Shown piece by piece: positions 723 to 61,093 of a stretch of 64,000 nucleotides of DNA. The stretch's first letter is position 1, and every line of letters begins with the position of its first letter. The DNA is taken from contig NZ_CP046452.1 of the NCBI RefSeq assembly GCF_009734385.1, forward strand, positions 1,178,001 to 1,242,000, given 5' to 3'. The notes under the pieces were generated by a model. It made no database searches, was not told the origin of the DNA, and worked only from the letters and a program-made list of their open reading frames with translations. Source of the stretch: Corynebacterium kalinowskii (lineage in GTDB: Bacteria; Actinomycetota; Actinomycetes; Mycobacteriales; Mycobacteriaceae). A program made the position numbers and the translations under genes.

Positions 723-1694
723 TTACAGAGAATTGAACGAGTTCGTCGGTTCATCATACGCCTTGAGTCCGGCAGCTGCTCGCTGAGCAACAGCCTCCGC
801 AAGGTGTGTCGGAGCTGCTAGTTGAACCTGTCCCCCGCAGGCTAGCACGAAGCGGATCAACCACTCCTCGGACCCGACGGGAATGGTGCCATGGATCCAT
901 TCGTCATCCGCTTGTGCGCCTAGCGTGATCGGGACGTAGTCAGCGATCCAGGCGTAGCTCTTCGCCACCCGGATTTCGGCTTGCGTCCTGCCGAATGCGA
1001 ACGGATCCTTCAGTGAAAACTTCAGGAGGTCGGCGTGCGGGACCGCTTCTTCCTCGGCCAAAGCCACTGAACTCATCCGGTCGATCCGGAAGGTGCGGTG
1101 CTCGTCCACCCCGTGATCCCAGCCGCGGAGGTAGGTAAATCCGTCGCTGGTGAAAACATGAGCTGCTGAGACGACGCGTTCTGAGGTGCTGAATGTGGTC
1201 TGCGAAAAATAGTGAAAAGTCAGTTGCTTGCGCTCGTCCATGCTGGTTCGAATGAGATCGAGAACTGAAGTACCTTCGGGCGCCGCTTCAGCATCCGCTA
1301 CGGCGCTGACCTGCTCCCCCATGATTTCCCGCAGTTTAGCGGCCGCAGATGTCACCGCAGCATTGTTGACGAGCCCTGGCGTTGCCTCGAGGTTCTCTAG
1401 GGCCAATAGGAGGGCGGCGGCCTCTGTCGTCGATAAGCGCAGTGGCTTGTCCATGCCCTGGGCGTTAGCCACCCGCACGCTCTGGTAGGAGTGCTTCAAA
1501 TCCACGAGGTCGCCGGGCATGAGTCCGGGGAGTCCGCAGCACCAAAGCCGATTGAGGTCGTCCATGATTTCGTGGGGCTCCCGACCCAGGTCGCGGGCGG
1601 CTTCCATCACGGTGCGTTCGGGGTGTGCCTCGAAGTATGGCAGCAAGTTCAGCATCCGGACGAGGTCGGCTAGCCTTTCACTTCCGCGTGCCAT
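723..1694 (-). CDS. pafC: WYL-domain transcriptional regulator PafC
   Basis: PafC forms with PafB a heterodimeric activator. In mycobacteria the pair controls the LexA/RecA-independent DNA-damage response. The 323-residue protein begins MARGSERLADLVRMLNLL, a winged-helix N-terminus, and carries a WYL-type ligand-sensing domain around residues 145-230 ending in the HRTFRIDRMSS motif. An upstream extension is possible in frame, but the ATG at 1694 shares its first base with the pafB stop (TGATG), so translational coupling supports this start. Position, size and pairing with the adjacent paralogue make the assignment firm. Corynebacterial targets cannot be read from this sequence. Confidence 0.93.
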   Translation of the reverse strand: MARGSERLADLVRMLNLLPYFEAHPERTVMEAARDLGREPHEIMDDLNRLWCCGLPGLMPGDLVDLKHSYQSVRVANAQGMDKPLRLSTTEAAALLLALENLEATPGLVNNAAVTSAAAKLREIMGEQVSAVADAEAAPEGTSVLDLIRTSMDERKQLTFHYFSQTTFSTSERVVSAAHVFTSDGFTYLRGWDHGVDEHRTFRIDRMSSVALAEEEAVPHADLLKFSLKDPFAFGRTQAEIRVAKSYAWIADYVPITLGAQADDEWIHGTIPVGSEEWLIRFVLACGGQVQLAAPTHLAEAVAQRAAAGLKAYDEPTNSFNSL

Positions 1695-2656
1695 CAGTGT
1701 GACTCCTTCACTTGGCGCAGTCCGGCTACGATCTCCGCGCGCAGTTCCGCTGGTTCGAGCAGGACAATCTCGGGTGCGGTAGCAAGACACTCACGCACCA
1801 GCCAGTGCTTATCGACGTCCTCCACCACAATCGTCTCCCCCACGCGCTCACCTTGTGCTTCTAACTCGGGCGAGGCGCCCGGAGCCACCCGAAGCGTTGC
1901 CGTGACGAGTTCTTTTCCTCGGCGCAGTGCGGTCTCCACAATGTCTTGCAGGTTGACATTCTGGGGTTTGCGCTGTTCAGCAGCCCCGGAGACATGAATG
2001 TCCGACACGCGGGTGATGCGGAAAGCACGCACGGCTTCGCGGTCTGGATCGTATCCGACCAAGTACATGCGTCCCCGGAGCGGGACGAGACCCCAGGGAT
2101 CCATGCGCCGCTCCTGGTCAGCTGCCTGTTGGTGCGGCCGGTAAGTAAAAGTTAGTCGGTGTCCGGCAGCGCAGGCACCCACAATCTGGTCCAGAGTTTT
2201 TGCCTTGAGAGCTTGCATATCTCCAACAGCACCGATGGTGGTGGGATCGGTGAAGGTGCGAGATGCGCCGGAAGCCGCGATCTTGGTCCAGCCGGAACGG
2301 GCGAAGACGGAGAGCTCGCCGGTGAGGCCGCGTTCGCCAGCCAGGCCTAAGATGGTGGCTTCTTCGGCGGTAAAGCGCACCTCAGGAAGGGAATATTCTT
2401 CTTCCTGGAGGCGGTAACCCGTGACCCGCTCGCCGTTTTCGACGGCGGCATCTGCGATCGCTTCGATGGGCACTCCGACTTTCATCAGTACCGCGCGATC
2501 GCGCTGAAATGCCTTGTCAAAGTGTCGCTCTGGATAGCCAAAGACGTTCTTCTTGACCCAGTGCGCAGTGAGGAACTGCTTGCCTAGCTGCCTGGCGTTG
2601 AGAAAGGCAAAGGTCAGGTTAGTCAGCCGTTCCAGGCCTGGGTCTTTTTTGGTCAT
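1694..2656 (-). CDS. pafB: WYL-domain transcriptional regulator PafB
   Basis: PafB is the partner of PafC in the mycobacterial DNA-damage regulator. The 320-residue protein has an N-terminal winged helix (RLTNLTFAFLNARQ) and a WYL domain with the conserved RMDPWGLVPLRGRMYLVGYD and VRAFRITRVSD stretches. The ATG overlaps the pafA stop by four bases (ATGA), which fixes the start and shows co-expression with the Pup ligase. The link between pupylation genes and these regulators is conserved in actinobacteria, although PafBC is not needed for the pupylation chemistry itself. Confidence 0.94.
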   Translation of the reverse strand: MTKKDPGLERLTNLTFAFLNARQLGKQFLTAHWVKKNVFGYPERHFDKAFQRDRAVLMKVGVPIEAIADAAVENGERVTGYRLQEEEYSLPEVRFTAEEATILGLAGERGLTGELSVFARSGWTKIAASGASRTFTDPTTIGAVGDMQALKAKTLDQIVGACAAGHRLTFTYRPHQQAADQERRMDPWGLVPLRGRMYLVGYDPDREAVRAFRITRVSDIHVSGAAEQRKPQNVNLQDIVETALRRGKELVTATLRVAPGASPELEAQGERVGETIVVEDVDKHWLVRECLATAPEIVLLEPAELRAEIVAGLRQVKESH

Positions 2657-4044
2657 AAGTACTCGATGAGTTCTTCCACTCGGGAATCAACGGAGGCAAA
2701 GGGATCACCAAGCTCCACCATATGCGGTTCGGGCTGGTTAATCTTCAGACGCATCCAGTCTACGGTGACACTCGCCTCTCGTTCGAGTGCAGCGCTGAGG
2801 AAATCACCGCGTAGCTTCGCACGAGTAGTTTGAGGCGCCTGATCCTTGGCCACCTCGATCACCTCATCTGACACCCAGCGCTGTACCAGCCCCTTGGCCT
2901 CGAGTACCGGAAAGATTCCCCGCCCTGGCTTAATGTCGTGATACATCAAATCGATTTGGGCCAGCTTCGGGTGGTCGAGGTCCCAGCTGTTCTTCTCTAG
3001 GTAGCGATTGATGAGCTTTCTCTTGATCACCCAGTCAATTTCAGTATCGACCTGTGAGAAGTCCTGAGACTCGAGAGCCGTGAGCATCCGGCCCCACAAA
3101 TCAACGACTTTGTTAAGGTCTTCGTTCGGCTCACGCTCGTGCAGCCACGCAGCGGCCGCCTCGTGGTACGCGCGTTGCATGGCCAACGCGGTGATCGTCC
3201 CGCCATTTTTCAGCTCGATGACTGTGCTGCCCGTGCTGTCGCGCGCGATCTGGCGGATGGAGGCGATGTCGTCGGCAAGCCCAAAGTCGGGCAGCTCGAC
3301 GCCAGCTTCGATCATTTCTAGCACCAGTTCGGTTGCACCGATCTTGAGTGCGATGGTGGGCTCGGCGAGGTTCGAATCGCCGACGATCACATGCAGGCGG
3401 CGGTACAGCGAGGAATCGGCATGCGGTTCGTCCCGGGTGTTAATCATGGGGCGACTACGGGTGGTCGCCGAGGACACCCCTTCCCACACGTGGTCGGCGC
3501 GTTGGGAGACGCACCAACCGGTGCCAAAGTGCGAGCTCGCGCTGCCCAGGAAAGGGCGGTAAATCAAGCCGGCGCCTGCGATGAGCTGGCGAGTGACGAG
3601 AAACGGAATCAGTTTGCGCCCGAGTACTTTGAGCACGGCCGTCCGCGACACCAGGTAGTTTTCATGGCAGCCGTAGGAGTTGCCCTGGCTGTCAACGTTG
3701 TTTTTGAACAGGTAGATCTGCGCAGGTTTGCCCTCCGCGGCGAGCGCTTCCTCGGCTTGGATAGCCAGGTCAGAGACAATGCGATCTCCGGCCTTTTCGT
3801 AGGCGATGAGTTGGCTGATCGAGTCGCATTCGGCGGTGGCGAATTCTGGGTGCGAGCCGACATCCAAGTACAGGCGGGAGGCGTTCGGCAGGAAGATATT
3901 TGAACTTGAATAGCGTTCGACGATGGGCCGGAACATGTACCGGGCGACATCATCGGGGGTCATGGGGGCGATGTTTCCCGGCAGGGTCGCCATGATGCCG
4001 TATTCGGTTTCGATCCCCTTGATCCTGCGGGTCAGAGCCGTCAC
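2653..4044 (-). CDS. pafA: Pup-protein ligase PafA
   Basis: PafA activates the C-terminal glutamate of Pup with ATP and links it to substrate lysines. The 463-residue protein belongs to the glutamine-synthetase-like PafA/Dop family. It starts RRIKGIETEYGIMATLPG and contains LYLDVGSHPEFATAECD, YLFKNNVDSQGNSYGCHENY and INTRDEPHADSSLYRRLHVI, all conserved nucleotide/metal-site stretches. It lacks the extra loop after the N-terminal GTETEYGI that marks Dop, so the two paralogues can be told apart. The start is GTG at 4044, overlapping the pup stop codon, so translation is coupled to pup. Confidence 0.97.
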   Translation of the reverse strand: MTALTRRIKGIETEYGIMATLPGNIAPMTPDDVARYMFRPIVERYSSSNIFLPNASRLYLDVGSHPEFATAECDSISQLIAYEKAGDRIVSDLAIQAEEALAAEGKPAQIYLFKNNVDSQGNSYGCHENYLVSRTAVLKVLGRKLIPFLVTRQLIAGAGLIYRPFLGSASSHFGTGWCVSQRADHVWEGVSSATTRSRPMINTRDEPHADSSLYRRLHVIVGDSNLAEPTIALKIGATELVLEMIEAGVELPDFGLADDIASIRQIARDSTGSTVIELKNGGTITALAMQRAYHEAAAAWLHEREPNEDLNKVVDLWGRMLTALESQDFSQVDTEIDWVIKRKLINRYLEKNSWDLDHPKLAQIDLMYHDIKPGRGIFPVLEAKGLVQRWVSDEVIEVAKDQAPQTTRAKLRGDFLSAALEREASVTVDWMRLKINQPEPHMVELGDPFASVDSRVEELIEYL

Positions 4045-4219: not shown

Positions 4220-5662
4220 TTAGTCCTTTCCTTGGATCAAGTTTAGGGCGCGGGGGTCGTCGGCGGTGAAGGAATCCACTTCGGGCATGCTGATGCGCTG
4301 CTCATCGACGACCATGCTGTCCCAACTAGCGGCTAGAACGCGCTGGCTGTGGTCGCGCATCAGGGTGCCGCGGGTGTAGGCCCTGGTGTCTAGTGGCGGA
4401 TTCTTCGCAGCGTGCAGGATCTCTTCCTCGGTGACCAGAGTTTTCATGCGCCCCTTGCGTACCAGGGCGTGGTACAGCGACTTAGCTGGGTCAATGTCAC
4501 AGTATTGGAGGTCGATGAGCTGCATCTTTGGGTGGTCCCAGGTCAGTCCCCTGTCGACAAATCCCTGCATCAGGGCGAGCTTCGCGGTCCAATCCAGCAG
4601 GTGGCTCGTGCTAAGCGGGTCACTGTCCAGCATATCCAGCACCTGACCCCACAATTGGTGTTCGCGGGATCCGCCGCTGACTCGTCCGTGGTATTCCCGC
4701 AGAATTTCCACGGCGGTGAGCTGGCGGCCGTCTTTGAGCTGCAAGCGGTGCTGCAACGTCAGGTCCCGTGACACGTTTTGCACTTCTGCCACTGGGTTCG
4801 CCAGCGCCAGATCTTCGAATGAGACGCCCTCTTCGATGGCATCCAGCACCAGCGCTGTCATGCCCATTTTCAGGAAGTTCGCCGTCTGCGACATGTTCGC
4901 GTCGCCGATGATCACGTGTAGGCGCCCAAAGCGTTCCTCATCCGCGTGTGGCTCGTCGCGAGTGTTGATGATGCCGCGGTTGAGCGTCGTCTCCAGCGAA
5001 ATTTCTGTCTCGATGTAGTCGGCACGTTGCGAAATCTGGAAGCCAGGTTGCTCTCCCCTAGCCCCTAGTCCAACTCGTCCTGCACCAATGATCACCTGTC
5101 GGGTGACAAAGAACGGGATCAGCGCCGCAGACAACACATCAAAATCGGTCGCCCTGAAATAAAGGTAATTTTCGTGGCTGCCGTAGGACGCACCCTTGCC
5201 GTCCACATTGTGCTTGTAGATCTTTAGCTCCGGGCACGGCGCGTGCCCATCCAGCGCAGACAGTCCCTGGCTGGTCAGTTCCGCAACGGCCACTACGGCC
5301 TCGCGCAGGATGATGTCGCCGGCTGCGTCGAAAAGCATGGCATCCCACGCGTTGGTCGTTTCCGGTGCGGAATACTCGGGATGTGCGTGATCGACGTAGA
5401 ACCGGGCGCCGTTGCCGAGGACGACGTTGGCTACGCCCACGGCGTTCGGATCGATGACCGGTACGGTGTGGTAGCGCTTGAGGTCGAATCCGCGCAGGTC
5501 ACGAAGGGGGTGTTCGCCACCGAAGTCCCAGCGTGCCCGCCGGGCGCTTATCGACGCCGCGTAGGCCACCACAGCGTGAGTGGAGGTAATGATCGGGCTG
5601 AGCAGCGGATCGCTCGGGGTGGCGATGCCGTACTCAGTTTCGGTTCCCATGAATCTTGGCAT
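4220..5662 (-). CDS. dop: Deamidase/depupylase of Pup, Dop
   Basis: Dop converts the Pup C-terminal Gln to Glu and also removes Pup from substrates. The 480-residue protein is a PafA paralogue with MGTETEYGIATPSDP at the N-terminus, the Dop-specific segment after it (residues about 35-70, including SARRARWDFGGEHPLRDLRG), and the active-site stretches FYVDHAHPEYSAPE, IYKHNVDGKGASYGSHENY and INTRDEPHADEERFGRLHVI. The first ATG (5662, MPRFMGTE) is used; a second at 5650 would lose only four residues. It begins 3 bases after arc. A copy of the 11-base repeat lies inside the gene at 5546-5556 and forces a rare ATA codon. Confidence 0.96.
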   Translation of the reverse strand: MPRFMGTETEYGIATPSDPLLSPIITSTHAVVAYAASISARRARWDFGGEHPLRDLRGFDLKRYHTVPVIDPNAVGVANVVLGNGARFYVDHAHPEYSAPETTNAWDAMLFDAAGDIILREAVVAVAELTSQGLSALDGHAPCPELKIYKHNVDGKGASYGSHENYLYFRATDFDVLSAALIPFFVTRQVIIGAGRVGLGARGEQPGFQISQRADYIETEISLETTLNRGIINTRDEPHADEERFGRLHVIIGDANMSQTANFLKMGMTALVLDAIEEGVSFEDLALANPVAEVQNVSRDLTLQHRLQLKDGRQLTAVEILREYHGRVSGGSREHQLWGQVLDMLDSDPLSTSHLLDWTAKLALMQGFVDRGLTWDHPKMQLIDLQYCDIDPAKSLYHALVRKGRMKTLVTEEEILHAAKNPPLDTRAYTRGTLMRDHSQRVLAASWDSMVVDEQRISMPEVDSFTADDPRALNLIQGKD

Positions 5663-7202: not shown

Positions 7203-8375
7203 CTACGATAGCGTGAACGCTATTCGGGTTGGATGGCCATACACTACTTGCCAGCCGCCGGCTTGTTGAGCTGCTGGGGATTCATTGCGTTTTCGGGTGC
7301 CGTCGGCTTGTACCATGACGGCTCGACCTAGTTCCATTTCGAGGTGGTCTTCGAGCCAACTGTCGTCGATAAGCCTGTGGTGTTTTGGACACAGGAGTGC
7401 GAGGTTGTCGATGGATGTCGGTCCTCCCCGCGACCACGGCACAACATGGTGGGCGTCGCATCTGCTTGCTGGAACATTGCAGCCAGGATGTTGGCAGACC
7501 CCATCTCGGCCAAAAAGTGAGAGCCGTTGATGGAAGTTGGCAGATCTGCTGGCAGTGACCAGGGCCTTTACTGCGCCGTTGTGGTCGTGGACTTGGATGT
7601 AGTCGATGACTTTGTCACCACTCAGATAGTCAACGTCCATTAGATTGAGGTCGAGCCCCACATTGGTGCCGAACTTGACTTGCCAATCGAATTCGTCCCA
7701 TTCCGTGACGCTGACGATCAAGGAGCAATGTCCGGTGTGGGAGCGACGGTCGCTGGATGCCCAACGCAGTACCTGTTCGAAAGCGTCGGCTTCGCGCTGC
7801 GTGATGGTGCGACGATCTTCGTCTTCATCTCGGGTAGCTTGGTCAGTCCGGAACGCTTGATCAATAAGGGCTTTGAACAGCGCTGCCGTAGCTGCAGGGG
7901 CGTAACCGTTGAACTTGCAACCACCGTGCTCGTCTTGGTTGCCCAGGGAAAAACGACGCTGGCGATACGCTTCAAACGGGTCCTGAGCCAGTTCCTCGTT
8001 TTCCTGGCGCACTAACTTCTTGGTGTACTCATGAGTCTGGCGCGGGGTGGATTTCAGCGCGGCCGCAGCTGCGAGCTGATAAATTTCTGTGCGACGCTCA
8101 GAAGATGGGGAAAGCTTGTCCAACGCGCCCAAGATGAGGTCCTGGTGCTCGACAGGTACGTCGGGATTCCACCAATTGTTGGCGCGTCGTTCGATGCGGT
8201 AGCCTTCGGAAGCACTGGCACCGGCCTTCTCCAGCTCCCTACGACTTTTTCCCGCGGCCATTCTGGTTTCGAGCCGGGCTACCACTTCCTTCAAACGAAG
8301 CAAATCGCCAAACGATTCGAAAGAATGATCGTCAACAAGCGCCTGTTCAAGAATTTGCGTGGCCTGTGCGATCAT
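7203..8375 (-). CDS. DUF222/HNH endonuclease-domain protein
   Basis: A 390-residue protein of the actinobacterial DUF222 (13E12-like) plus HNH family. The N-terminal 250 residues are the helical DUF222 region. The C-terminal nuclease signature is clear around residues 290-335: [20 protein letters not shown], then [14 protein letters not shown], giving the zinc Cys pairs and the His-His core. Members are multicopy in many actinobacteria and have no agreed biological role. The ATG at 8375 follows a very strong ribosome site (GGGAGGGGG) and a recognisable promoter. The gene ends 4 bases before arc, so it appears to head the pupylation operon here. It may be an insertion between trmI and arc. Confidence 0.9.
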
Positions 8376-8472: not shown

Positions 8473-9312
8473 CTACTTCCGCCCGCGTCGTTGCGGACGA
8501 GGAGCCACGGTGCCGTCGGCAAGCCTGCGTGCCCAAATCAGGAACGCGGTGTGGGCGTTCATTCGGTGTTCGGGGCGGGTGGCCAGGCCCTCGACCTTCC
8601 ATTCGCGCACGAGGGATTCCCAGGCCTTCGGCTCGGTGAAGCACTTCTGCTCGCGGATACCTTCCATGACCTTCATCAGCTGTGGGACCGTGGCTACGTA
8701 CGCCATGAACACACCGCCGGGGACGAGGAGCTTGGAGCTCACCTCGAGGCACTCCCACGGTGCGAGCATGTCCAGAATGATGCGGTCGACGGGCTGACCG
8801 CCGAGATCATCCAGGGTTACTTCCTGCAGATCTCCGAGCCGTGGCGACCAGTTGGCAGGGCGACCACCGAACCAGCCGTCCACGTTGGACTCTGCGAACT
8901 CCAGGTGATCCTCGCGGATCTCGTAAGAAACCAACTCCCCTTCCGGACCGATGGCGCGCAGCAGCGCCATGGACAGGGCGCCGGAGCCAGCGCCGGCCTC
9001 AAGGACGCGGGCGCCTGGGAAGATGTCGCCCTCGACGAGGATCTGCGCAGTGTCTTTCGGGTAAATCACGGCCGCGCCACGTGGCATGGACAGGATGTGG
9101 TCTACCAGCAGGTGGCGGAAGCACAGCCACTGGCCGCCCATGACGGATTCCACGACGGTGCCTTCATCGGCGCCGATGATCTTGTCGTGCTCAACGATGC
9201 CCTTGTGGGTGTGCAGGGACCCGCCAGGCTCCAGGATGATGGTGAAGTGACGGCGCTTAGCGTCGGTGAGTTGGACGCGGTCGCCCGCCTGGAAAGGTCC
9301 CGTATTAGCCAT
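8473..9312 (-). CDS. trmI: tRNA (adenine-58-N1)-methyltransferase TrmI
   Basis: Methylates N1 of adenine 58 in the T-loop of tRNAs with S-adenosylmethionine. The 279-residue protein has the small N-terminal beta domain (FQAGDRVQLTDAKRRHF) and a Rossmann methyltransferase core. The SAM motif EAGAGSGA lies at 105-112, followed by VSYEIREDHLEFAESNV and the catalytic-type DRIILDMLAPWE. The C-terminus is basic (RPQRRGRK). It lies 10 bases downstream of the M18 aminopeptidase, so the two are likely co-transcribed. In mycobacteria this gene adjoins mpa; here the HNH gene separates them. Confidence 0.95.
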   Translation of the reverse strand: MANTGPFQAGDRVQLTDAKRRHFTIILEPGGSLHTHKGIVEHDKIIGADEGTVVESVMGGQWLCFRHLLVDHILSMPRGAAVIYPKDTAQILVEGDIFPGARVLEAGAGSGALSMALLRAIGPEGELVSYEIREDHLEFAESNVDGWFGGRPANWSPRLGDLQEVTLDDLGGQPVDRIILDMLAPWECLEVSSKLLVPGGVFMAYVATVPQLMKVMEGIREQKCFTEPKAWESLVREWKVEGLATRPEHRMNAHTAFLIWARRLADGTVAPRPQRRGRK

Positions 9313-9322: not shown

Positions 9323-10561
9323 TTAATCGGCCAACGTCAGGTAAGAAAACAGCGCCTGTTCGAACCATTCGAGATCAGAAACGTGCGCCAATTCGCGCGC
9401 GGAGTGCATCGACAGCAGCGGGATTCCCACGTCCACCGTTTCGATACCCAGACGCGTCGCGGTGATCGGACCAATCGTCGAGCCACATGGGCTGTTGTTA
9501 TTGCCCGCGAAGACCTGCGACAGCACGCCAGCCTCGCGACACGCGCGCTCCCACATCCCCACCGTCACCGCGTTGGAGGCGTACCGCTGGTTGGCATTGA
9601 CCTTCACCACCGGCCCCGCGCCGAGCACCGGGTAGTTCACTGGGTCGTGGCGGGATGCGTAGTTCGGGTGAATCGAGTGCGCTGCGTCCGCGGAGACGCA
9701 GGTAGAACGGGCAAACATCTGCTGAGTTTCCTCAAACCCGCAACCCAAAGCAGCCGCGGTGCGCGACAACACCGTCTCCAAAATCGGTCCCGCCGCACCT
9801 GTGGTCGTTGCCGAACCGATCTCCTCATGATCGAAGGCAGCAAAGACGAGAATATCCTCACCTGCCGAAGCCCGTAGGAAAGCCTGCAACGACGCCCACA
9901 CCGACGACAGGTTGTCTATGCGTCCCGCCGCGATCAGGCGCTTATCGACGCCAAATTCCGCTCCGCGCTGCCCGTCCACAGTAATGAGATCGTGGGCCAC
10001 GATGTCAGCGGCCGAAACTTCGGCCGCCGCAGCCACGACATCGAGCACGGAAGTATCCGCAGACCCAACCGCATAAATCGGCTGCGTGTGAGCCTGGCGG
10101 TCCAGCGTCATCGAGTCATTCACCGAACGGTCCAAGTGAATGGCGAGGTGTGGGATGCGGAAGTCGGCTTCGGTCGCAACCAGTTGGGATGTGCCGTCGG
10201 CTAGCACAATCCGACCGGCAAGACGAAGTTCGCGGTCGAACCAGGACGCAATGATCGGCCCGCCATAGACCTCCACGCCTGCCTGCTGGAATCCCGCTGC
10301 GCTGAGATCTGGGCGAGGCTTGAGCTTGAAGCCCGGGGAATCCGTGTGGGAGCCGATGATCCGGAAACCCCGTGGCGAACCTGAGGGGATTTTCCAGGCG
10401 AGCACTGCCCCGTCGCGCACCATGTAATGACCGCCAGGAGCTGCTGACCAGGCGGAAGATTCCGACTGTTCCGTAAAGCCAGCGTCTTTAAAAGCGGCAG
10501 CGACAGTGGCCGCCGCGTGGTACGAACTCGGAGAAGATTCGATAAAAGAAAGGAACGACAT
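9323..10561 (-). CDS. M18-family metallo-aminopeptidase
   Basis: Dinuclear metal aspartyl-type aminopeptidase that removes N-terminal (often acidic) residues from peptides in the cytoplasm. The 412-residue length is normal. Metal and catalytic residues are visible: GSHTDSPGFKLKP (His72 and Asp74), GRIDNLSSVWA (bridging Asp), FDHEEIGSATTTGA (catalytic Glu and metal Glu), VSADAAHSIHPNY (Asp) and the final SMHSARELAHVSD (His). The start ATG 10561 faces the plus-strand AAA gene across an 85-base divergent gap that must hold both promoters. The usual name in annotations is ApeB or PepM18. Confidence 0.93.
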   Translation of the reverse strand: MSFLSFIESSPSSYHAAATVAAAFKDAGFTEQSESSAWSAAPGGHYMVRDGAVLAWKIPSGSPRGFRIIGSHTDSPGFKLKPRPDLSAAGFQQAGVEVYGGPIIASWFDRELRLAGRIVLADGTSQLVATEADFRIPHLAIHLDRSVNDSMTLDRQAHTQPIYAVGSADTSVLDVVAAAAEVSAADIVAHDLITVDGQRGAEFGVDKRLIAAGRIDNLSSVWASLQAFLRASAGEDILVFAAFDHEEIGSATTTGAAGPILETVLSRTAAALGCGFEETQQMFARSTCVSADAAHSIHPNYASRHDPVNYPVLGAGPVVKVNANQRYASNAVTVGMWERACREAGVLSQVFAGNNNSPCGSTIGPITATRLGIETVDVGIPLLSMHSARELAHVSDLEWFEQALFSYLTLAD

Positions 10562-10646: not shown

Positions 10647-11768
10647 ATGGCACAGGAGCTACAACGGCCACCCGCAGAGGTTCGATACGCAGCCGATTTG
10701 GAATTGCTAGCTCGTCTGGATGCAGAGTTGGGTCGGACCGCTCCCAAGGGTTGGCGGCTATCGGCACCCGCAGTGGTTGAGTTCATTGTCGGCCGAGGTG
10801 AACCTGGCGACAAGGACTACGTGACTCAAAAGTTCATCGGGCCGATCGCTCAAGTTCAGCGGTGCGTGGTTACGCTTGCCACCAACAGGGGTCTGATGTT
10901 GATCGGTGAACCTGGGACTGCCAAGTCGCTGCTATCTGAGCTGCTTGCGGCGGCAATTTCCGGCGATAGTTCCCTGACTATTCAGGGCTCTGCCGCCACA
11001 ACCGAGGATGCTATTAAATATTCCTGGAACTATGCCATGCTGCTTGCCGAAGGGCCGAGCGAAAAAGCATTGGTGCCAGCCCCGATGTATCAAGGAATGA
11101 CCTCGGGTGCCGTCGTGCGATTTGAGGAAATTACGCGCTGCGCCCCAGAAGTCCAAGATGCGCTGCTGTCGATCTTGTCCGACCGAGTACTCACCATTCC
11201 TGAATTTGAAGGGGCCCGACGCAACACTCATGCTGTTCAGGGGTTCGGGGTCATCGCCACCGCCAACACTCGCGACCGCGGCGTGAACGAGATGTCGGCA
11301 GCGCTCAAACGACGCTTCAACTTCGAAACCATCGGTGCCATTGGCGACGCTGACGTGGAAACCCAATTGGTCCAGCGGGAAACGGATTATGCGCTTGAGC
11401 GAGCCGGCATACCTTTCCGACTGCCCCACGATTTCACCGAGGTGCTCGTGAGCATTTTCCGCGAACTGCGTCGTGGAACCGCAGGCGGGACAGGCGTCGA
11501 ACGCATGAGCTCAGCAATGTCCACCGCCGAAGCGGTTGCCGCAGGAGTTTCCGCAGGGCTCGAATCCGCATGGTTCGGATCCGGCACGCCAGGTGGAAAG
11601 GAACTCGCCGCTGCTATCGTCGGGACGGCGCTGAAAGATAGTAAGGAAGACATCGCCAGGTTAAAGGCCTACAGCGAACGCTATCTCCATGGTTCAAAAA
11701 ATCCCCTTCGGGCTTCGCTCTATGAACACCTGGAACTTGATCACGTCGAAAAGCACACGCCCCGCTGA
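10647..11768 (+). CDS. MoxR-class (YehL-type) AAA+ ATPase
   Basis: Predicted ATPase motor of a five-gene module. The 373-residue protein has Walker A GEPGTAKS (87-94), Walker B VVRFEEI (156-162), a sensor-1 region VIATANTRDRGVNEMS and the arginine-finger stretch SAALKRRFNFE. Replacement of the Walker B Asp-Glu by Glu-Glu is also seen in MoxR-like proteins. MoxR ATPases usually act with VWA-domain partners to remodel or activate protein complexes, and a VWA protein is encoded two genes downstream. The ribosome site is GAGGAG, 11 bases before the ATG. Its stop and the next start share one base (TGATG). It is closest in layout to E. coli YehL, by recall. Confidence 0.85.
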   Translation: MAQELQRPPAEVRYAADLELLARLDAELGRTAPKGWRLSAPAVVEFIVGRGEPGDKDYVTQKFIGPIAQVQRCVVTLATNRGLMLIGEPGTAKSLLSELLAAAISGDSSLTIQGSAATTEDAIKYSWNYAMLLAEGPSEKALVPAPMYQGMTSGAVVRFEEITRCAPEVQDALLSILSDRVLTIPEFEGARRNTHAVQGFGVIATANTRDRGVNEMSAALKRRFNFETIGAIGDADVETQLVQRETDYALERAGIPFRLPHDFTEVLVSIFRELRRGTAGGTGVERMSSAMSTAEAVAAGVSAGLESAWFGSGTPGGKELAAAIVGTALKDSKEDIARLKAYSERYLHGSKNPLRASLYEHLELDHVEKHTPR

Positions 11769-25503: not shown

Positions 25504-25620
25504 GTGAACTTTTCCTCTCATCGGCAGGTACGTGCCGAACGATCCGAGTGATGAGGTGGACAGCGCTACCGGTTGGTTAACGTTTTCCTTCCACTGTAAC
25601 CGCTCCAGACGCCATGGGAC

Positions 25621-40960: not shown

Positions 40961-42055
40961 GTGACACATCATCCTCTGCGCACCAAGGCCTACGAGCTGG
41001 CTCTTTCCGGCATGTTCACGCTGCGCCCGGAGCGCATTCACATCCTGATGGTTAAGGCCCTGAGGATGCTGCACCAGGCAACGCCTATCAACCGCGCGAT
41101 GAACCGGGTGCTTCCGGTGCGCGATCCGATCCTCGCTCAGGACGTGTTCGGCGTGCACTTCCCTCGCCCCCTTGGACTCGCCGCAGGTTTTGACAAGAAC
41201 GCCACCTGCGCTGACGCGTGGGCACCGCTCGGTTTCGGGTACGCCGAACTAGGCACTGTGACCGCACAGGCGCAGCCCGGCAACCCGACTCCTCGCCTGT
41301 TCCGCCTGCCTGCGGACAAGGCGATCCTCAATCGCATGGGCTTCAACAACCGTGGCGCAGCCTTTGCTGCTGAGCAGCTGCGACTTCGTCGCTCCGATGA
41401 TGTGGTCGGCATCAACATTGGCAAGACGAAGGTCGTTCCTGCAGCCGAAGCCGTGGCCGATTACCGCGCCTCCGCTTCCCTGCTCGGTGACCTCGCCGAC
41501 TTCTTGGTGGTCAATGTTTCCTCCCCGAACACGCCGGGTCTGCGCGACCTCCAGGCTGTCGAATCGTTGCGCCCAATCCTGGCAGCCGTCCAAGAGTCGA
41601 CCACTTCCCCAGTGCTGGTGAAGATTGCTCCGGATCTTTCCGACGAAGACATTGACGCCGTCGCCGACCTGGCAGTCGAGCTGGGGTTGGCCGGCATCGT
41701 CGCCACCAACACGACAATCTCACGCGAAGGCTTGTCGACGCCATCCGCTGACGTAGCAGCCATGGGTGCCGGCGGCATCTCTGGCGCCCCGCTCGCTACT
41801 CGATCGTTGGAAGTCTTGCGCCGTTTGCATGCGCGCGTGGGATCCCAGCTGGTCCTAATCTCCGTCGGCGGCATCACCACGCCTGAAGAAGCGTGGCAGC
41901 GCATTGCCGCAGGAGCGACCCTTTTGCAGGGATACACTCCGTTCATTTACGGTGGTCCGGACTGGATTCGCGACATTCATCTGGGCATCGCTGAGAAGCT
42001 GCGTCAGCATGGCTTTAGCAACATCTCTGAAGCTGTGGGCTGCGGGCTGGATTAG
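40961..42055 (+). CDS. pyrD: Dihydroorotate dehydrogenase (quinone), class 2
   Basis: Membrane-associated flavoenzyme of pyrimidine synthesis that passes electrons to quinone. The 364-residue protein has the class 2 N-terminal helical extension ([20 protein letters not shown]). Conserved segments are [44 protein letters not shown] (catalytic Ser), [21 protein letters not shown] and [15 protein letters not shown]. The start is GTG 40961. A relaxed repeat variant, GCTTGTCGACG, lies at 41730-41740. Confidence 0.97.
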
Positions 42056-49742: not shown

Positions 49743-50348
49743 GTGATTAGGTCTGCTGAATTCTCCGATATTCCAGTCATCGCTGAGCTGATGGCTACCG
49801 CCTTCTGGGATGACGATGCGTTTCGCAGGTACTTCAAGGGCTTTGCAGGTGTGGATCGCGCGGTGGGCGCCGAGGAGCGTCGAAAAGCGCTTGCCCCCAT
49901 TTTCGCCCGCCAGCTGGAAGTCGAGTACGTCCCCGAGGGCGTAGTTGACGTCTTCGAAGACGACGGCGAGATTCTGGGTGCTGCCAGCTGGAACTCACCA
50001 TTCGAACGCGGAGGGTTCAATTTCGGCTCGTACGTGCGTATGTATGGCGCTCACTCGTTCCGCATGGCGATTCGTGACGCCTATTCCAAGCGCTACCACC
50101 CTGCTGAGCCGCACTGGTATCTCTATACCATCGTGGTCTCCCCTGATGCGCAGGGGCGCGGGATTGGTTCTCAGCTGTTGGGGCATGGCTTGCAGCGCGC
50201 AGATGACTCCGGCCATGGAGTCTATCTTGAGGCCACCACACCAGGCTCCCGGCGGCTGTATGAGCGACATGGGTTCGAAGTGAAAGCGGAAATCCCCACC
50301 CCGGACGCGTGGGCGAACGAGGTGGGGATGTTTCGGCCGACTCTCTAG
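49743..50348 (+). CDS. GNAT-family N-acetyltransferase
   Basis: A 201-residue acetyltransferase. The acetyl-CoA-binding motif A is clear (YTIVVSPDAQGRGIGSQLLG, with the Q-G-R-G-I-G loop), followed by YLEATTPGSRRLYERHGFEV (motif B). It resembles the puromycin-acetyltransferase-like branch, with an aromatic-rich mid-region EPHWYLYTI. The start is GTG 49743, 11 bases after the dehydrogenase. It converges on the cupin gene with a 4-base overlap at the stops. Substrate unknown. Confidence 0.88.
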   Translation: MIRSAEFSDIPVIAELMATAFWDDDAFRRYFKGFAGVDRAVGAEERRKALAPIFARQLEVEYVPEGVVDVFEDDGEILGAASWNSPFERGGFNFGSYVRMYGAHSFRMAIRDAYSKRYHPAEPHWYLYTIVVSPDAQGRGIGSQLLGHGLQRADDSGHGVYLEATTPGSRRLYERHGFEVKAEIPTPDAWANEVGMFRPTL

Positions 50349-50861: not shown

Positions 50862-51959
50862 CTATGGCTCGGAAACCGCATCAAAGGCTGCGAGCACCTC
50901 TTGCGCCGCTAACGTAGCGGTGATTTCGCCTTGCCTGAGCTGGTGTTCCACGCGCTTCTGCGTCTCCACGACATTCAGATTCGTGTTGAGCCGCTGCAGT
51001 AGCGTCTCGTGGACCATCGACCACATCCACCCCACCTGCTGCTCACGGCGGCGCTCCTCAAACTGGCCTGAATCCTGCATCACCTTGTGGTGCTCCATGA
51101 CGTGGCCCCAGAATTCATCGATGCCCTCATGTTCCACCGCGGACATGGTGATCGTCGGCGGGTGCCAGAGCTCATTCTCGGATCGCACCATGCGCATTGC
51201 GGCTGCCAGTTCGCGGGCAGCACGCTTCGCAGGCTTTAGATTAGGTCCGTCGGCCTTGTTGATGGCCACTATCTCAGCCATCTCCAGCACGCCCTTCTTA
51301 ATGCCCTGCAGCTGGTCACCGGCGCCAGCGAGTGCTAGGAAACAGAACACGTCGACCATCTGAGATACCGCAACTTCGGATTGGCCGACACCGACAGTCT
51401 CGACGATGATGACGTCGTACCCAGCTGCCTCAAAGACGACCATGGACTCACGCGTCGCCTTTGCCACGCCACCGAGGGTGCCCGCCGACGGCGAAGGACG
51501 GATGAAGGCGTTGTCCTCGGCAGACAGCTTGGCCATGCGAGTCTTATCGCCAAGAATTGAGCCGCGGGTCTTGGTCGAGGAAGGATCGATGGCCAGCACG
51601 GCAACCCGATGCCCTTCTCGAATCAGCTTCATACCCAAGGTTTCAATGGTCGTGGACTTTCCCACACCCGGCACACCAGTCAAACCCACGCGCAGCGCTT
51701 TGCCAGAATGCGGCAGCAGCCTGACCAGCAACTCCTGGGCGAGCACGCGGTGTGCCGGAGCAGATGATTCGAGCAGGGTCACCGCGCGGGCGATCTGGGT
51801 CCGGTCGCCGGCGAGGACGGCCTCGTAAAGCTTATCGACGTCGATACGCTGGCGAGCCCGCTTGACCACCTCCGGTGCAACTGCTGTTTGCGCACCCAAG
51901 TCGGTGCCGGCGGTGGTGGTCAGGGAGCCGAGCGAATGCTCAAGGAAGTCATTGCCCAT
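50862..51959 (-). CDS. meaB: Methylmalonyl-CoA mutase GTPase chaperone MeaB (ArgK family)
   Basis: G3E GTPase that guards loading and repair of adenosylcobalamin in methylmalonyl-CoA mutase. It has 365 residues: Walker A GVPGVGKS (95-102), switch regions VLAIDPSSTKTRGSILGDKT and IVETVGVGQSEVAV, base-recognition motif NKADG, and the C-terminal dimerisation arm. It follows mutB after a 96-base gap that holds a terminator hairpin. The 11-base repeat occurs in this gene at 51830-51840. Confidence 0.96.
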   Translation of the reverse strand: MGNDFLEHSLGSLTTTAGTDLGAQTAVAPEVVKRARQRIDVDKLYEAVLAGDRTQIARAVTLLESSAPAHRVLAQELLVRLLPHSGKALRVGLTGVPGVGKSTTIETLGMKLIREGHRVAVLAIDPSSTKTRGSILGDKTRMAKLSAEDNAFIRPSPSAGTLGGVAKATRESMVVFEAAGYDVIIVETVGVGQSEVAVSQMVDVFCFLALAGAGDQLQGIKKGVLEMAEIVAINKADGPNLKPAKRAARELAAAMRMVRSENELWHPPTITMSAVEHEGIDEFWGHVMEHHKVMQDSGQFEERRREQQVGWMWSMVHETLLQRLNTNLNVVETQKRVEHQLRQGEITATLAAQEVLAAFDAVSEP

Positions 51960-51980: not shown

Positions 51981-51991
51981 CGTCGATAAGC
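51981..51991 (-). repeat. GCTTATCGACG repeat, intergenic copy upstream of meaB
   Basis: An exact copy on the minus strand, 22 bases before the meaB start codon and just after the mutB terminator. It lies only 140 bases from a second copy in opposite orientation inside meaB (51830-51840). Confidence 0.8.
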
Positions 51992-54269: not shown

Positions 54270-56141
54270 TTACGCTCCCAGCTTGGTGAGCAGGTCGGAC
54301 AGGGTCGACGCAGCGTCGATCTTCATGTTGACATAGCCGTCTGGCTTCACGTCAGCGTTCTCGAAGGACTTCTCAGCGCCGGCGATCAGGATCGTGCTGA
54401 CACCGGCTTCGCGCAGTGCCTTCACCACGTCAGCGCCGGTTGCTTCGTATTCCTGGTCGGTGCCGCAGACAACGACGATGTCGGAAGCCTTGGCAGCCGT
54501 CACGAACTCGTCAGTGCCAGGGGTGACCTGGCCAGGGTTGGCCGTCTCAATACCACCAGAAGCCAGCAGGTTGGCGGTGAATCCGGTGCGGATGTTGTGC
54601 TTGGCCAGTGGCCCGACCGGGATCATGCCAATGAGTGGACGCTTGCCGTTGGCATCGAGGAAGGCATCCGAGCGGTCGCGCAGCGCCTCAAAATCAGCAG
54701 CCCAACGGCGAATGCCGGTAGGTTCCGTGCGAAGCTCTGCTGGCAGTGGCTTTTCGCCCAAGTTCGGGAACTCGTTGATGCCAGTGACCTTCTTCACGCG
54801 GCGAGCGATGTCGCTGCGCATCTTCTCGTAGGAAGCGTCCAGGTCTGCCTGAATGTCCGCCTCGCGGAGGCCACCCTTTGCTTCAACACCAGCGAACTCA
54901 GCCCAAGCCTTCTCCGCCAACTGCTTAGTCAGAGACTCGACGAAGTACGAGCCACCAGCAGGGTCAACGACATAACCCAAGTGCGACTCTTCGAGCAGCA
55001 GCAGGTTGGTATTGCGTGCAATGCGGGCAGCGAACACACGCGAGGTGCCAGGTAGGCCACCCTGGATAGCGGAGTCAAATGGCAGAACCTCGACGTCCGA
55101 TGCGCCGCCAACACCAGCAGCAAACGCAGCCACGGTCACGCGGAGCATGTTTACCCACGGATCACGCTGGGAGAACATTGCTGGTGCGGTCACGGCGTGC
55201 TGTGGAGCAAAGCCGGCTTCAGGAGCCTCCAGCACCTCGGCGACGCGAGCCCACAGGGTACGAGCGACGCGGAACTTAGCAATCTGAGCAAACTGATCGT
55301 CAGTAGCAGCGAAGCGGAAGGCGATCTGAGACAGCGCCTGCTCCACGGAAAGTCCAGCCTCGGTCAGCGCGCGGACATACTCGACGCCGGCAGCAAGTGC
55401 GAAACCGATTTCCTGAGCGTCGGTGGCGCCCTGGTTGGCGAAGACAGTGGCGTCGACAAGCAGGGTGCGGATGGTGCCAGACCAGGCGGCATTCTCGACG
55501 GCGATGGCAACGGCGTCGGCAAGCGAAATGCCCTCAGCGCCAACGATGCTGTCGGTGAGTGGAGCGGCAGCCAGCTCGAAGCGAGCCTTATCCGCGACAC
55601 CGGCATCTTCGGCCAGCTTCTTCAGCGCCTCGCCAGCAGCCTTGACCTCAGTGCCTGCGACTACGCGAACCTCGACGAGGTCGAGCAGTACGTCCTTCAG
55701 GACGACCGACAGATCAGCGGCGGTGAGACCAGCAGTGAGGTCTACGACTACCACGGTGGTGCCGTTATTCAAGGCATGCAAGATGGCCTTGTTGGTGGCT
55801 GCTGGGTCGCCGGACGTGCCGGACAGGGTGCCACCGAACGTCTCAGTGACATCCCAACCAATGCGCTCCGCAGAGGTTGCAACGCCACCGCGGGTGAATG
55901 GGAACACGCCTGGTGCAGAGACTTCAGCGAGTTCATCTGCGCGAGTGTAAAGCGGATTAACGTCGATACCCTCATAGGTGGTGTGGATCAGCTTCGTCCA
56001 CACGTCAAGTGGGACATCAGCGATGTCCTTCTTTTGTACACGTGCAAACACCTTTGCAACCTGCTTGTACCAATCCTGCTGGTTGTCAGCGAAATCGGCA
56101 GGCAGTGAGGTATTTACCGCGTCAGACTGTACATCAGTCAC
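54270..56141 (-). CDS. mutA: Methylmalonyl-CoA mutase small (beta) subunit
   Basis: Structural partner of MutB. It is a 623-residue degenerate paralogue with the DWYKQVAKVFARVQKKD N-terminus, a barrel region (YVRALTEAGLSVEQALSQIA, LPFDSAIQGG-like VLPFDSAIQGGLPG) and a C-terminal B12-like domain in which the cobalamin-binding Asp-x-His-x-x-Gly motif is absent (reads GPLAKHNIRTGFTANLLASG), as is normal for this subunit. GTG 56141 (VTDVQSDAV) has AAGG 6 bases upstream and matches the family start; the frame extends 42 codons further without support. Confidence 0.95.
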   Translation of the reverse strand: MTDVQSDAVNTSLPADFADNQQDWYKQVAKVFARVQKKDIADVPLDVWTKLIHTTYEGIDVNPLYTRADELAEVSAPGVFPFTRGGVATSAERIGWDVTETFGGTLSGTSGDPAATNKAILHALNNGTTVVVVDLTAGLTAADLSVVLKDVLLDLVEVRVVAGTEVKAAGEALKKLAEDAGVADKARFELAAAPLTDSIVGAEGISLADAVAIAVENAAWSGTIRTLLVDATVFANQGATDAQEIGFALAAGVEYVRALTEAGLSVEQALSQIAFRFAATDDQFAQIAKFRVARTLWARVAEVLEAPEAGFAPQHAVTAPAMFSQRDPWVNMLRVTVAAFAAGVGGASDVEVLPFDSAIQGGLPGTSRVFAARIARNTNLLLLEESHLGYVVDPAGGSYFVESLTKQLAEKAWAEFAGVEAKGGLREADIQADLDASYEKMRSDIARRVKKVTGINEFPNLGEKPLPAELRTEPTGIRRWAADFEALRDRSDAFLDANGKRPLIGMIPVGPLAKHNIRTGFTANLLASGGIETANPGQVTPGTDEFVTAAKASDIVVVCGTDQEYEATGADVVKALREAGVSTILIAGAEKSFENADVKPDGYVNMKIDAASTLSDLLTKLGA

Positions 56142-56456: not shown

Positions 56457-57152
56457 GTGCGCAACCAACTCATCGAACGCTGGCGAGTCATCGCTTTCGG
56501 CCTCTTTCTCGTGTGTGGCCTGTTGTTGGCGTTCCTAGTTGATCTCCCCTCGCTGGAACAGCTGCGCCACTGGACGGAGGTGTACGGTGCTTGGTCAATC
56601 CTTCTCTTCGCACTGCTCTACGTCACTGTGACTCAGTTCCCCATCCCGCGCACCGCGCTCACGGTATCCTCGGGAATTCTCTTTGGCCCAGCGCTCGGCA
56701 TCACGATTGCGCTGCTGAGCACAACTGTCGCCGCCGTGGTGTCCCTCACCCTGCTGCGGGCGCTTCTCGACGTCCCTTCCGACCCCACCAAGGCCGCTGA
56801 CTCTGTCCTCGGCCGATGGGCGCGCAAACAGGGAGGACACCCAGCCTTGTCCAAAGTGAACGAGCGGTTGGAACACCGCGGCTGGTTCTCGGTCATGTGC
56901 CTGCGACTCATTCCGGGATTGCCGTTCTCCATCCTGAACTATGCCTGCGTGTTCACTCCAGTCAAGCGTCTCGATTTCGCCTTCGCTACCTTTGTGGGTT
57001 CGGCGCCTTCCACGATCATTGGCGTGCTCCTCGGCGATTCGCTGACTACCGGGCAGCATCAAAGCACGGCACTGCTCTTGGGTGCACTCGGCCTGGTCGG
57101 CATGGTGGGATTGGTTGTCGATCTGTTGCTACCGGTCAAGTCTAAAGCGTAG
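56457..57152 (+). CDS. TVP38/TMEM64 (DedA-superfamily) membrane protein
   Basis: A 231-residue membrane protein of the SNARE-associated/VTT family, with about six hydrophobic segments. The core motif has FPIPRTALTVSSGILFGPAL (first re-entrant loop) and CLRLIPGLPFSILNYACVFT, with the conserved R-x-x-P-x-x-P/F pattern that suggests lipid or undecaprenyl-phosphate transport in related DedA proteins. The start is GTG 56457 (RNQLIERW). A short gap (9 bases) leads to the next gene on the same strand. Confidence 0.88.
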   Translation: MRNQLIERWRVIAFGLFLVCGLLLAFLVDLPSLEQLRHWTEVYGAWSILLFALLYVTVTQFPIPRTALTVSSGILFGPALGITIALLSTTVAAVVSLTLLRALLDVPSDPTKAADSVLGRWARKQGGHPALSKVNERLEHRGWFSVMCLRLIPGLPFSILNYACVFTPVKRLDFAFATFVGSAPSTIIGVLLGDSLTTGQHQSTALLLGALGLVGMVGLVVDLLLPVKSKA

Positions 57153-57788: not shown

Positions 57789-58956
57789 GAACCGGCTCGT
57801 CAAACTGAGTCAACTCCCGCTGTCCCTGGGGTTCACGGGAAGTAGACAGCTCTTCCAGCGGAGATTCAACTGGTTTGTTTGCCACCGCGTTCGCGGCAGC
57901 TACAGCAGCAGCGATAGCCGGATCGGATTCAGTATTGAACCACTCCGCCGTGTCTTCCTCGGAGGCCATCTCCTTAGTTTCTTCGTTGACCGCAGCAGGC
58001 TCGTAGCGGAAGATTCCCTCGTCATCCTTCTTGGCCATGGCCTTGGCGAACTGCTCTAGAGAATCGCCAAATTGGCTTGGAATGATCCACGTCTTATTGG
58101 CTGAGCCCTGTGCCATCTTCGGCAACTTGTCCAGGTACTGGTACGCCAATACCTCCGGAGTCAACTGAGCAGACTTGATCGCGGCATTAACCTTCTGGAT
58201 AGAGCGTGCCTCACCCTGAGCCTTCAGGTACTTGGCCGCGCGCTCACCCTCAGCACGAAGGATCATTGCCTGGCGTTCGGCTTCTGCAGCGAGAATCATC
58301 GCGTGCTTCTCACCCTCCGCCGCGAGGATCTTCGCTTGCTTCTCACCCTCTGCAGTCTTGATGTCAGCCTCACGCTGACCCTCTGCTGTCAAAATCGTGG
58401 CGCGCTTCTCGCGGTCCGCTTTCATCTGCTTCTCCATCGACTGCTGAATCGATGGAGGTGGATCAATAGCCTTCAGCTCCACGCGGGAAATGCGTAGACC
58501 CCACTTAGTCGTTGCGGCGTCAAGTTCACCGCGCAGTCGACGGTTGATCACTTCACGGGAAGTGAGGGTCTCTTCCAAGGTCATGCCGCCGACGACGTCG
58601 CGAAGCGTTGCAGTGGAGATTTGTTCCACGCCAACGATGTAGTTGTCCACGCCGTAAATCGCGCGGGCTGCGTCATTGATCTGGAACGTGACCACAGTGT
58701 CAATGGCCACCGTCAGGTTGTCCTGGGTAATGACCGCCTGCGGTGGGAATGAGACGACGCGCTCACGGGTGTCCACCTTGGCGCGGACGCGGTCGATGAA
58801 AGGCACCAACAAAGTGATGCCACCGGACACCGTCCGGGTATAGCGACCCAGACGTTCAATCACGGCGGCTTCGCCTTGCGGGATCAAGGCGATCGATTTG
58901 ACGAGCACGATGATCACGAAGATCATCAGTACAAAGAGGACAATGATCCCCTCCAT
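57730..58956 (-). CDS. SPFH/stomatin-type membrane scaffold protein (QmcA-like)
   Basis: A 408-residue protein. It has an N-terminal membrane anchor (GIIVLFVLMIFVIIVLVKSI), an SPFH domain (IPQGEAAVIERLGRYTRTVS, GITLLVPFIDRVRAKVDTRE, VSFPPQAVITQDNLTVAIDT) to about 190, then a coiled coil of AEGE repeats (AEGQREADIKTAEGEKQAKI, AEGEKHAMILAAEAERQAM) and an acidic disordered tail. Such proteins organise membrane microdomains, usually with an NfeD partner, which is encoded just upstream. The C-terminal tail overlaps the convergent gene by 59 bases. Confidence 0.92.
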   Translation of the reverse strand: MEGIIVLFVLMIFVIIVLVKSIALIPQGEAAVIERLGRYTRTVSGGITLLVPFIDRVRAKVDTRERVVSFPPQAVITQDNLTVAIDTVVTFQINDAARAIYGVDNYIVGVEQISTATLRDVVGGMTLEETLTSREVINRRLRGELDAATTKWGLRISRVELKAIDPPPSIQQSMEKQMKADREKRATILTAEGQREADIKTAEGEKQAKILAAEGEKHAMILAAEAERQAMILRAEGERAAKYLKAQGEARSIQKVNAAIKSAQLTPEVLAYQYLDKLPKMAQGSANKTWIIPSQFGDSLEQFAKAMAKKDDEGIFRYEPAAVNEETKEMASEEDTAEWFNTESDPAIAAAVAAANAVANKPVESPLEELSTSREPQGQRELTQFDEPVPSFEAQPVPPQNPRPYESN

Positions 58957-61078: not shown

Positions 61079-61082
61079 CCAC

Positions 61083-61093
61083 GCTTATCGACG
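61083..61093 (+). repeat. GCTTATCGACG repeat spanning the hemH stop codon
   Basis: An exact copy lies across the end of hemH: the TAA stop (61087-61085 on minus) is formed by the TTA within the motif. The motif therefore dictates the C-terminal end of the protein (Arg-Arg-Arg-stop) in this location. Confidence 0.8.

Follow-up and report, generated by a model that had tools for sequence, protein, structure and literature searches.

What is an 11-base word, GCTTATCGACG, doing in sixteen copies on both strands of 64 kb of the chromosome of Corynebacterium kalinowskii? The stretch in question (the window: 64,000 nucleotides, bases 1,178,001-1,242,000 of a genome that comprises 2,510,218 bases in one contig) lies near the terminus of the chromosome, as judged from GC skew. 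An initial annotation made from the window alone had reported the sixteen copies, read them as the outcome of selection for a DNA word, and named as possible roles a DNA-uptake sequence, a binding site for a nucleoid or segregation protein, a recombination hotspot or a modification target. All 16 copies are present, and their excess is genuine: dinucleotide shuffles of the window lead one to expect 0.02 copies (maximum 1 in 100 shuffles). Our results support the DNA-uptake sequence as the best fit among the roles listed, and we regard the motif as a probable DNA uptake sequence (DUS) of Corynebacterium with dialects, a tag by which cells would recognise the DNA of their relatives. The dialects and the species range are beyond the reach of 64 kb alone, and most of what follows draws on the whole genome and on its relatives.

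The exact word GCTTATCGACG is the form in which a degenerate motif, GCTTNNCGACGNC (GCTT-NN-CGACG-N-C), is most often spelled. The initial annotation had seen that a DNA word is present, and it had missed two features, the degeneracy at positions 5-6 and the preference for C at position 13. The whole genome contains 342 exact copies (167 forward and 175 reverse) and not one copy of the reversed control word, while GCTTNNCGACG is found 1,388 times, or once per 1.8 kb. Finer statistics were obtained from a sample of 864 kb out of 2,510 kb, consisting of 40 pieces of 20 kb and the window. Here, 102 exact copies face an expectation of 0.4 to 3.5 under Markov models of orders 0 to 5, an excess of 29- to 274-fold. 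Positions 5-6 of the 462 GCTTNNCGACG copies are most often AT (102), followed by TT (64), GT (62), GC (53) and CT (50); variants that differ from the exact word by one base within positions 7 to 11 occur 0 to 2 times each. Position 13 is C in 387 of the 460 copies with sufficient flanking sequence. This C belongs to the motif and goes beyond codon wobble, because it is the commonest base in all frame classes (7/14 in the weakest) as well as outside called genes (72 of 87 copies). The gene caller, which was made for this analysis, marked only 76% of bases as coding, so some of the copies outside called genes sit in genes that were missed.

Within genes, the excess does not stem from codon or dipeptide use. 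When codons were permuted synonymously inside each of 598 called genes (60 shuffles), the 372 genic copies of GCTTNNCGACG dropped to a mean of 30 (maximum 46), and the 75 exact genic copies to a mean of 2.9 (maximum 8). Because synonymous shuffling abolishes the excess, selection must act on the DNA. The main genic frame is G|CTT|NNC|GAC|G (Leu-x-Asp) in sense and C|GTC|GNN|AAG|C (Val-x-Lys) in antisense orientation, with 231 sense and 141 antisense copies, and the flanks of the copies are unrelated to each other apart from codon periodicity. The selection for a DNA word that had been proposed for the window is therefore borne out by the codon shuffle, the Markov counts and the C at position 13 outside genes, and likewise by coordinated shifts of dialect among species.

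These dialects became visible in a survey of 151 Corynebacterium genomes, in which we call a genome rich if it holds at least 150 copies of either dialect, a threshold set in this analysis. The GACG dialect, GCTTNNCGACG, reaches this number in 104/151 genomes, with up to 1,891 copies, and is at background in many others. A second spelling with GATG, GCTTNNCGATG, reaches it in 14/151: nine genomes possess 625-1,337 copies and five more possess 150-213, three of these five being mainly GACG. Four genomes are rich in both dialects, among them G166, which bears both in bulk (1,337 GATG and 352 GACG). Altogether 114/151 genomes are rich in one or both dialects and 37 are poor, although six of the poor ones hold 101-134 GACG copies. 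Elsewhere in the order (120 genomes) the count of GCTTNNCGAYGNC is close to that of the reversed control and nowhere exceeds roughly three times that number. Several GACG-rich genomes (G011, G036, G098 and, in the Corynebacterium tuberculostearicum group, G004, G005, G076, G116 and G132) additionally carry 118-159 GATG copies, a number that most GACG-rich genomes do not reach; these copies are perhaps remnants of, or reflect a tolerance for, the other dialect.

The strongest single item in favour of a DUS is that sites are re-spelled one by one between close relatives. We compared 12 pieces of G005 plus L160 with 23 pieces of G006 (of the C. accolens/macginleyi group) plus L117, which align over 127.8 kb at 82.5% identity; of the 90 GACG sites, 41 lacked an aligned counterpart and were not considered further. 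The remaining 49 GACG sites of G005 correspond in G006 to 23 GATG sites, 3 GACG sites and 23 sites with neither, so that 23 of the 26 intact orthologous sites have switched. Conversely, the 53 aligned GATG sites of G006 correspond to 23 GACG, 9 GATG and 21 sites of neither kind in G005. Base 10 has changed from C to T in 32/49 sites, compared to 63/413 (15%) of control CGACG words (p = 4e-13) and to a background of 7% of all CpG that became TpG between the two genomes. The same re-spelling is seen around the tad locus, where GCTTNNCGACG sites of C. tuberculostearicum type are mostly GCTTNNCGATG wherever the motif survives in Corynebacterium macginleyi and two relatives; one C. macginleyi site near the locus retains GACG. 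Gene loss was considered as the cause of the motif loss in the accolens group and rejected: the tad loci examined are uninterrupted, and the apparent loss is a change of dialect.

Dialect has changed at least three times in one clade of a TadA tree. This count is a single-gene estimate, because only 17/36 inner branches of the tree are well supported; of its 39 rows, 14 rows of that clade were used together with an outgroup state, with G097 and C. phocae left out. A further shift may be under way in C. macginleyi: in the tad region of L137, 4/10 sites that are CGATG in the relative KPL1814 read TGATG, against 9% of CpG to TpG overall (p = 0.009), and from these sites GCTTNNTGATG is a possible third dialect. 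No genome among the 151 exceeds 71 copies of GCTTNNTGAYGNC. A scan for new dialects in 100 kb each of the motif-poor genomes G014 and G063 yielded no clear one, while the same scan ranked the known motif first in the motif-rich control G005. In motif-poor G156 (L241, L242 and L261-L263) there is a mild excess of GCTCNNCGACG-like words, a weak hint that perhaps points to another dialect or perhaps to the codon usage of a GC-rich genome.

The window itself contains 43 copies of GCTTNNCGACG, the exact word included. One of the exact copies had been placed at 21276 and begins one base earlier, at 21275; likewise, a Ser-Ile-Ser reading had been given for two exact copies, and our gene calls assign it to three (5546, 39033 and 44917). 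In order of position (window coordinates, strand, description) the copies are:

1428..1438, minus, exact copy of GCTTATCGACG, inside an open reading frame (ORF) outside the called genes (probable missed gene)
1807..1817, plus, exact copy, antisense in a WYL-domain gene, Val-Asp-Lys
3270..3280, minus, degenerate copy GCTTGCCGACG
5326..5336, minus, degenerate copy GCTTTTCGACG
5546..5556, plus, exact copy, Ser-Ile-Ser
7364..7374, minus, exact copy, inside an ORF outside the called genes (probable missed gene)
8514..8524, minus, degenerate copy GCTTGCCGACG
9940..9950, plus, exact copy, antisense in an M18 aminopeptidase gene
11744..11754, minus, degenerate copy GCTTTTCGACG
12523..12533, plus, degenerate copy GCTTTTCGACG
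15357..15367, minus, degenerate copy GCTTGCCGACG
16780..16790, plus, degenerate copy GCTTGTCGACG
17894..17904, minus, degenerate copy GCTTCTCGACG
18959..18969, plus, exact copy, sense in a DUF4132 gene, Leu-Ile-Asp
19028..19038, plus, degenerate copy GCTTAGCGACG
21275..21285, minus, exact copy, sense in an ABC permease gene
22697..22707, plus, exact copy, outside called genes; alone among the 16 in lacking C at position 13
24630..24640, minus, exact copy, sense in an ABC ATPase gene
25995..26005, plus, exact copy, antisense in a formate-tetrahydrofolate ligase gene
31151..31161, minus, degenerate copy GCTTCTCGACG
34395..34405, minus, degenerate copy GCTTTTCGACG
35328..35338, plus, degenerate copy GCTTGCCGACG
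35844..35854, minus, degenerate copy GCTTTTCGACG
36829..36839, minus, degenerate copy GCTTGCCGACG
38192..38202, minus, degenerate copy GCTTCCCGACG
39033..39043, plus, exact copy, Ser-Ile-Ser
40924..40934, minus, degenerate copy GCTTTTCGACG
41730..41740, plus, degenerate copy GCTTGTCGACG
43650..43660, minus, degenerate copy GCTTGCCGACG
44784..44794, minus, exact copy, sense in an ABC transporter gene
44917..44927, plus, exact copy, antisense in the same ABC transporter gene as the copy at 44784, Ser-Ile-Ser
47663..47673, plus, degenerate copy GCTTTTCGACG
48005..48015, minus, degenerate copy GCTTCGCGACG
48433..48443, minus, degenerate copy GCTTCTCGACG
48783..48793, plus, degenerate copy GCTTCGCGACG
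49878..49888, minus, degenerate copy GCTTTTCGACG
51830..51840, plus, exact copy, antisense in the MeaB gene
51981..51991, minus, exact copy, outside called genes, adjoining the MeaB gene
55451..55461, minus, degenerate copy GCTTGTCGACG
55514..55524, minus, degenerate copy GCTTGCCGACG
56762..56772, plus, degenerate copy GCTTCTCGACG
58596..58606, minus, degenerate copy GCTTCGCGACG
61083..61093, plus, exact copy, spanning the end of a minus-strand gene (61085-62125) that the initial annotation labelled hemH

The window also harbours an msiK regulatory RNA (Rfam RF01747; 25507-25564, minus strand) at the start of the ABC transporter ATPase gene at 24367-25521.

Copies occur over the whole chromosome, the pieces at origin and terminus included, and without strand bias: of the GCTTNTCGACG copies found in the 40 pieces, 131 are oriented with the leading and 116 with the lagging strand (p = 0.37). 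A polar signal of the type of the FtsK orienting polar sequences (KOPS), against which the mild orientation bias in the window had already been taken to argue, is excluded by these numbers. Spacing is somewhat more even than chance (per-piece mean 10.5, variance 8.7), with 17.1% of 380 gaps shorter than 500 bases compared to 23.0% under a Poisson process, and pieces richer in GC tend to hold more copies (rank correlation 0.43, p = 0.005). Terminator hairpins were ruled out as an explanation, as close pairs are not in excess.

DNA of mobile character is poor in the motif. Piece L032 of the same genome (bases 60,001-80,000) has no copy at all; its genes include ApeA, a YobI-type ATPase, an integrase match that is weak (below the Pfam cut-off) and a long frame without Pfam match, and the piece is likely to be a mobile island with defence functions. 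A single integrase query matched nothing in the phage collection. Plasmids of three motif-rich species, sampled in eight stretches of 264 kb in total, contain 10 copies, compared to 87 expected from the chromosomal density of G005. Half of these ten lie at 9.8-13.1 kb of pTP10 (L267, Corynebacterium striatum), in a block (8.6-13.6 kb) that carries genes of chromosomal type such as dihydroorotate dehydrogenase and MshC, and we read this block as a fragment of chromosome that still bears its watermark. Motif density could hence serve to trace chromosomal DNA captured by plasmids.

The C. kalinowskii genome encodes genes expected of a transformable bacterium with a Tad/Flp pilus. comEA (with SLBB and helix-hairpin-helix domains) directly precedes comEC, the gene that follows we read as holA, and dprA is present. 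The tad locus has the order ssd, tadA, tadB, tadC, flp (DUF4244), a TadE-family pilin matched with a score under the curated cut-off, and an Rv3654c-like TadE pilin; all these genes, like comEA, comEC and dprA, are uninterrupted. There is one Flp pilin match in the genome, and a second T2SSE match is also present. In Micrococcus luteus, transformation needs Flp-pilus genes, and the genome likewise contains comEA and comEC (PMC4322843). Among the surveyed genomes, stop-to-stop open frames of ComEC are longer in motif-poor ones (median 706 vs 554), lengths from which nothing is concluded, and no extra Pfam domain was detected in the six ComEC examined. The three rich genomes G013, G101 and G146 (280-301 copies) have two sub-cut-off matches each for the Rv3654c-like TadE pilin, the listed ones of half length, and no other motif-rich genome has ComEC open frames as long as theirs (883-888 residues).

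How could a word be spread and re-spelled in this manner? Site-wise re-spelling is a hallmark of a DUS spread by biased transformation. Selection on each of about 1,000 individual sites would be very weak; we prefer a DUS because biased uptake together with recombination can re-spell sites without any benefit to the site itself. We infer competence, an uptake bias, a receptor and a barrier to gene flow, which would act together as follows. Free DNA would be taken up by the Tad/Flp pilus and passed inward via ComEA and ComEC, and a putative DNA-binding part of this surface machine would favour fragments that bear the motif. The imported strand would recombine and copy its motifs into the recipient, and sequences that drift towards the preferred word would spread through the population by molecular drive wherever the protein permits, the tolerated readings being mostly Leu-x-Asp or antisense Val-x-Lys. 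If a single base of the word preferred by the receptor then changed (CGACG to CGATG), sites would be re-spelled singly by the drive, and the resulting species dialects would limit gene flow between species. On balance, though with less assurance than for the DUS itself, we favour the view that this DUS arose independently, in mycolic-acid Gram-positive bacteria, that it is read by the Tad/Flp pilus, and that its specificity changed at least three times in one clade (on the single-gene tree), with G166 appearing as if in transit and C. macginleyi perhaps starting a third dialect.

Several observations weigh against such an uptake sequence. The turnover of the motif is high, because 23/49 sites of G005 and 21/53 sites of G006 are intact in neither dialect in the other genome. 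Close inverted pairs are not enriched (2.6% of gaps shorter than 60 bases, 10/380, vs 3.1% expected), and the ten plasmid copies exceed the 2.7 expected from composition. ComEC is found in 151/151 genomes, Flp pilin in 148/151 and TadE-like pilin in 150/151, though 37/151 are motif-poor; the machinery thus fits a DUS but fails to discriminate, because nearly all genomes carry it, whether rich or poor. A TadA score of at least 159 bits does separate 105/109 rich from all but 9/36 poor genomes, yet this threshold was picked after the scores had been seen, six of the 151 genomes (five rich, one poor) were omitted for want of a T2SSE row above the cut-off, and the link may reflect phylogeny alone. 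No alignment column separates the dialects in TadE, TadF-like or Flp proteins (41, 36 and 53 rows, respectively, from 56 loci, with only firm single-dialect rows compared). Finally, among the matches listed in the open-licence literature, as far as their titles and the opening lines of their abstracts show, there is no report of natural transformation in Corynebacterium.

The motif can have other explanations. On the one hand, the motif could organise the chromosome, with a nucleoid, condensin-loading or segregation protein that binds about 1,000 sites and whose specificity varies by species. The spread over the whole chromosome, origin and terminus included, and the scarcity on plasmids are predicted by this explanation too, and because of this we still grant it a small probability, the largest among the alternatives. 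It is at odds with the lack of replication polarity, with the 37/151 genomes of a single genus that are poor in both dialects, which would be odd for a core function, and with the one-base switch of about 1,000 sites, which needs a drive; 23/26 intact orthologous sites have switched. A recombination signal of Chi type, read by an AdnAB- or RecBCD-like nuclease, would equally be a short asymmetric word, frequent on the chromosome and scarce on plasmids. Words of this type are expected to prefer one replication orientation, and the ratio of 131 to 116 reveals no polarity; coordinated dialect switching is, to our knowledge, not a feature of Chi, and we consider this role improbable.

On the other hand, the motif might be a methylation target, the GATG dialect being merely the product of decay (C to T) of methylated GACG sites. 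The switch is indeed C to T within CpG, and C. macginleyi adds a change of the same kind at base 7 in 4/10 sites. Decay of this sort would have to account for 32/49 changes at base 10 against the 7% of CpG overall between G005 and G006, and it leaves the 625-1,337 otherwise intact GATG sites of nine genomes unexplained. Moreover, 22/56 GATG sites of G006 face neither dialect in G005, which implies either a gain of fresh GATG sites or the complete loss of GACG sites. Over-representation of this degree is unusual for modification targets, and we judge methylation very improbable, even less plausible than a Chi-type signal. Hardly any credence is left for a dispersed mobile repeat or for an artefact of protein motif or codon use. 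The majority of genic copies do read Leu-x-Asp, but an artefact of this kind is ruled out by the synonymous shuffling, and the C at position 13 prevails whatever the frame class, and also where no gene was called; a miniature inverted-repeat transposable element (MITE) or repetitive extragenic palindrome (REP) would be conserved beyond the word, and such conservation is lacking.

Among the matches listed in our search of the open-licence literature (on competence in Corynebacterium and Actinobacteria, on uptake sequences and on over-represented words) the motif is unreported, though it may be in print elsewhere; no paper on uptake signals in Actinobacteria was found there, and the word itself turned up only in papers that are, by title, on other subjects. 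In its accessible text, a survey of spaced motif pairs names Corynebacterium solely for CRISPR-derived pairs in three genomes (PMC5217627). A DUS in Actinomycetota, if confirmed, would be an independent case on which the molecular-drive theory of uptake sequences can be tested. Many Corynebacterium species would then be predicted to be naturally transformable, there would be a genetic tool for species that are hard to transform, and the motif would provide a DNA-readable map of gene exchange among human commensals. The dialects would be reproductive barriers among commensals of skin and nose, e.g. the C. tuberculostearicum and C. accolens groups, and the closeness of this dialect pair makes a search for the receptor practical.

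Chi and KOPS are polar words, and HIP1 is palindromic. The Corynebacterium motif is, like all three, a short over-represented chromosomal word; it is unpolarised, unlike Chi and KOPS, and asymmetric, unlike HIP1. A closer comparison is that with the uptake sequences proper. Strong sequence preference in DNA uptake has been described for two families, Pasteurellaceae and Neisseriaceae (PMC7811141), both of them Gram-negative. The uptake signal sequence (USS) of Pasteurellaceae is scarce in newly acquired DNA, and its accumulation is explained by molecular drive (PMC7811141); it has no genomic orientation bias, but one orientation is favoured in reading frames (PMC2346458). The Corynebacterium motif resembles it in its abundance, in the absence of a genomic orientation bias and in its scarcity in newly acquired DNA (PMC7811141, PMC2346458), and shares with known uptake sequences an orientation bias in frames (sense 231:141; PMC2346458). 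It differs from the USS, for which a bias towards gene ends is reported, in its word and in the phylum of its bearers.

With M. luteus (PMC4322843) Corynebacterium has in common actinobacterial tad genes and a genome with comEA and comEC. M. luteus, however, needs two tad clusters, whereas the Corynebacterium genome has one Flp pilin match, and the terms 'uptake sequence' and 'DUS' are absent from the text of the M. luteus paper (PMC4322843). The DUS of Neisseriaceae exists in dialects, with intragenic and intergenic copies (PMC3630211), and both systems consist of a short word that recurs hundreds to thousands of times, inside genes as well as in the spaces between them, with a conserved core, variable positions and dialects that differ between species. 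The word in Corynebacterium is unrelated and belongs to a high-GC Gram-positive genus, a Tad/Flp pilus locus stands in place of the minor pilin ComP of the type IV pilus in Neisseria, and close inverted pairs, common in terminators of Neisseria and Haemophilus, are not in excess. Even the coexistence of two dialects in a single genome has its counterpart: what Simonsiella muelleri displays among Neisseriaceae (PMC3630211), G166 displays in Corynebacterium.

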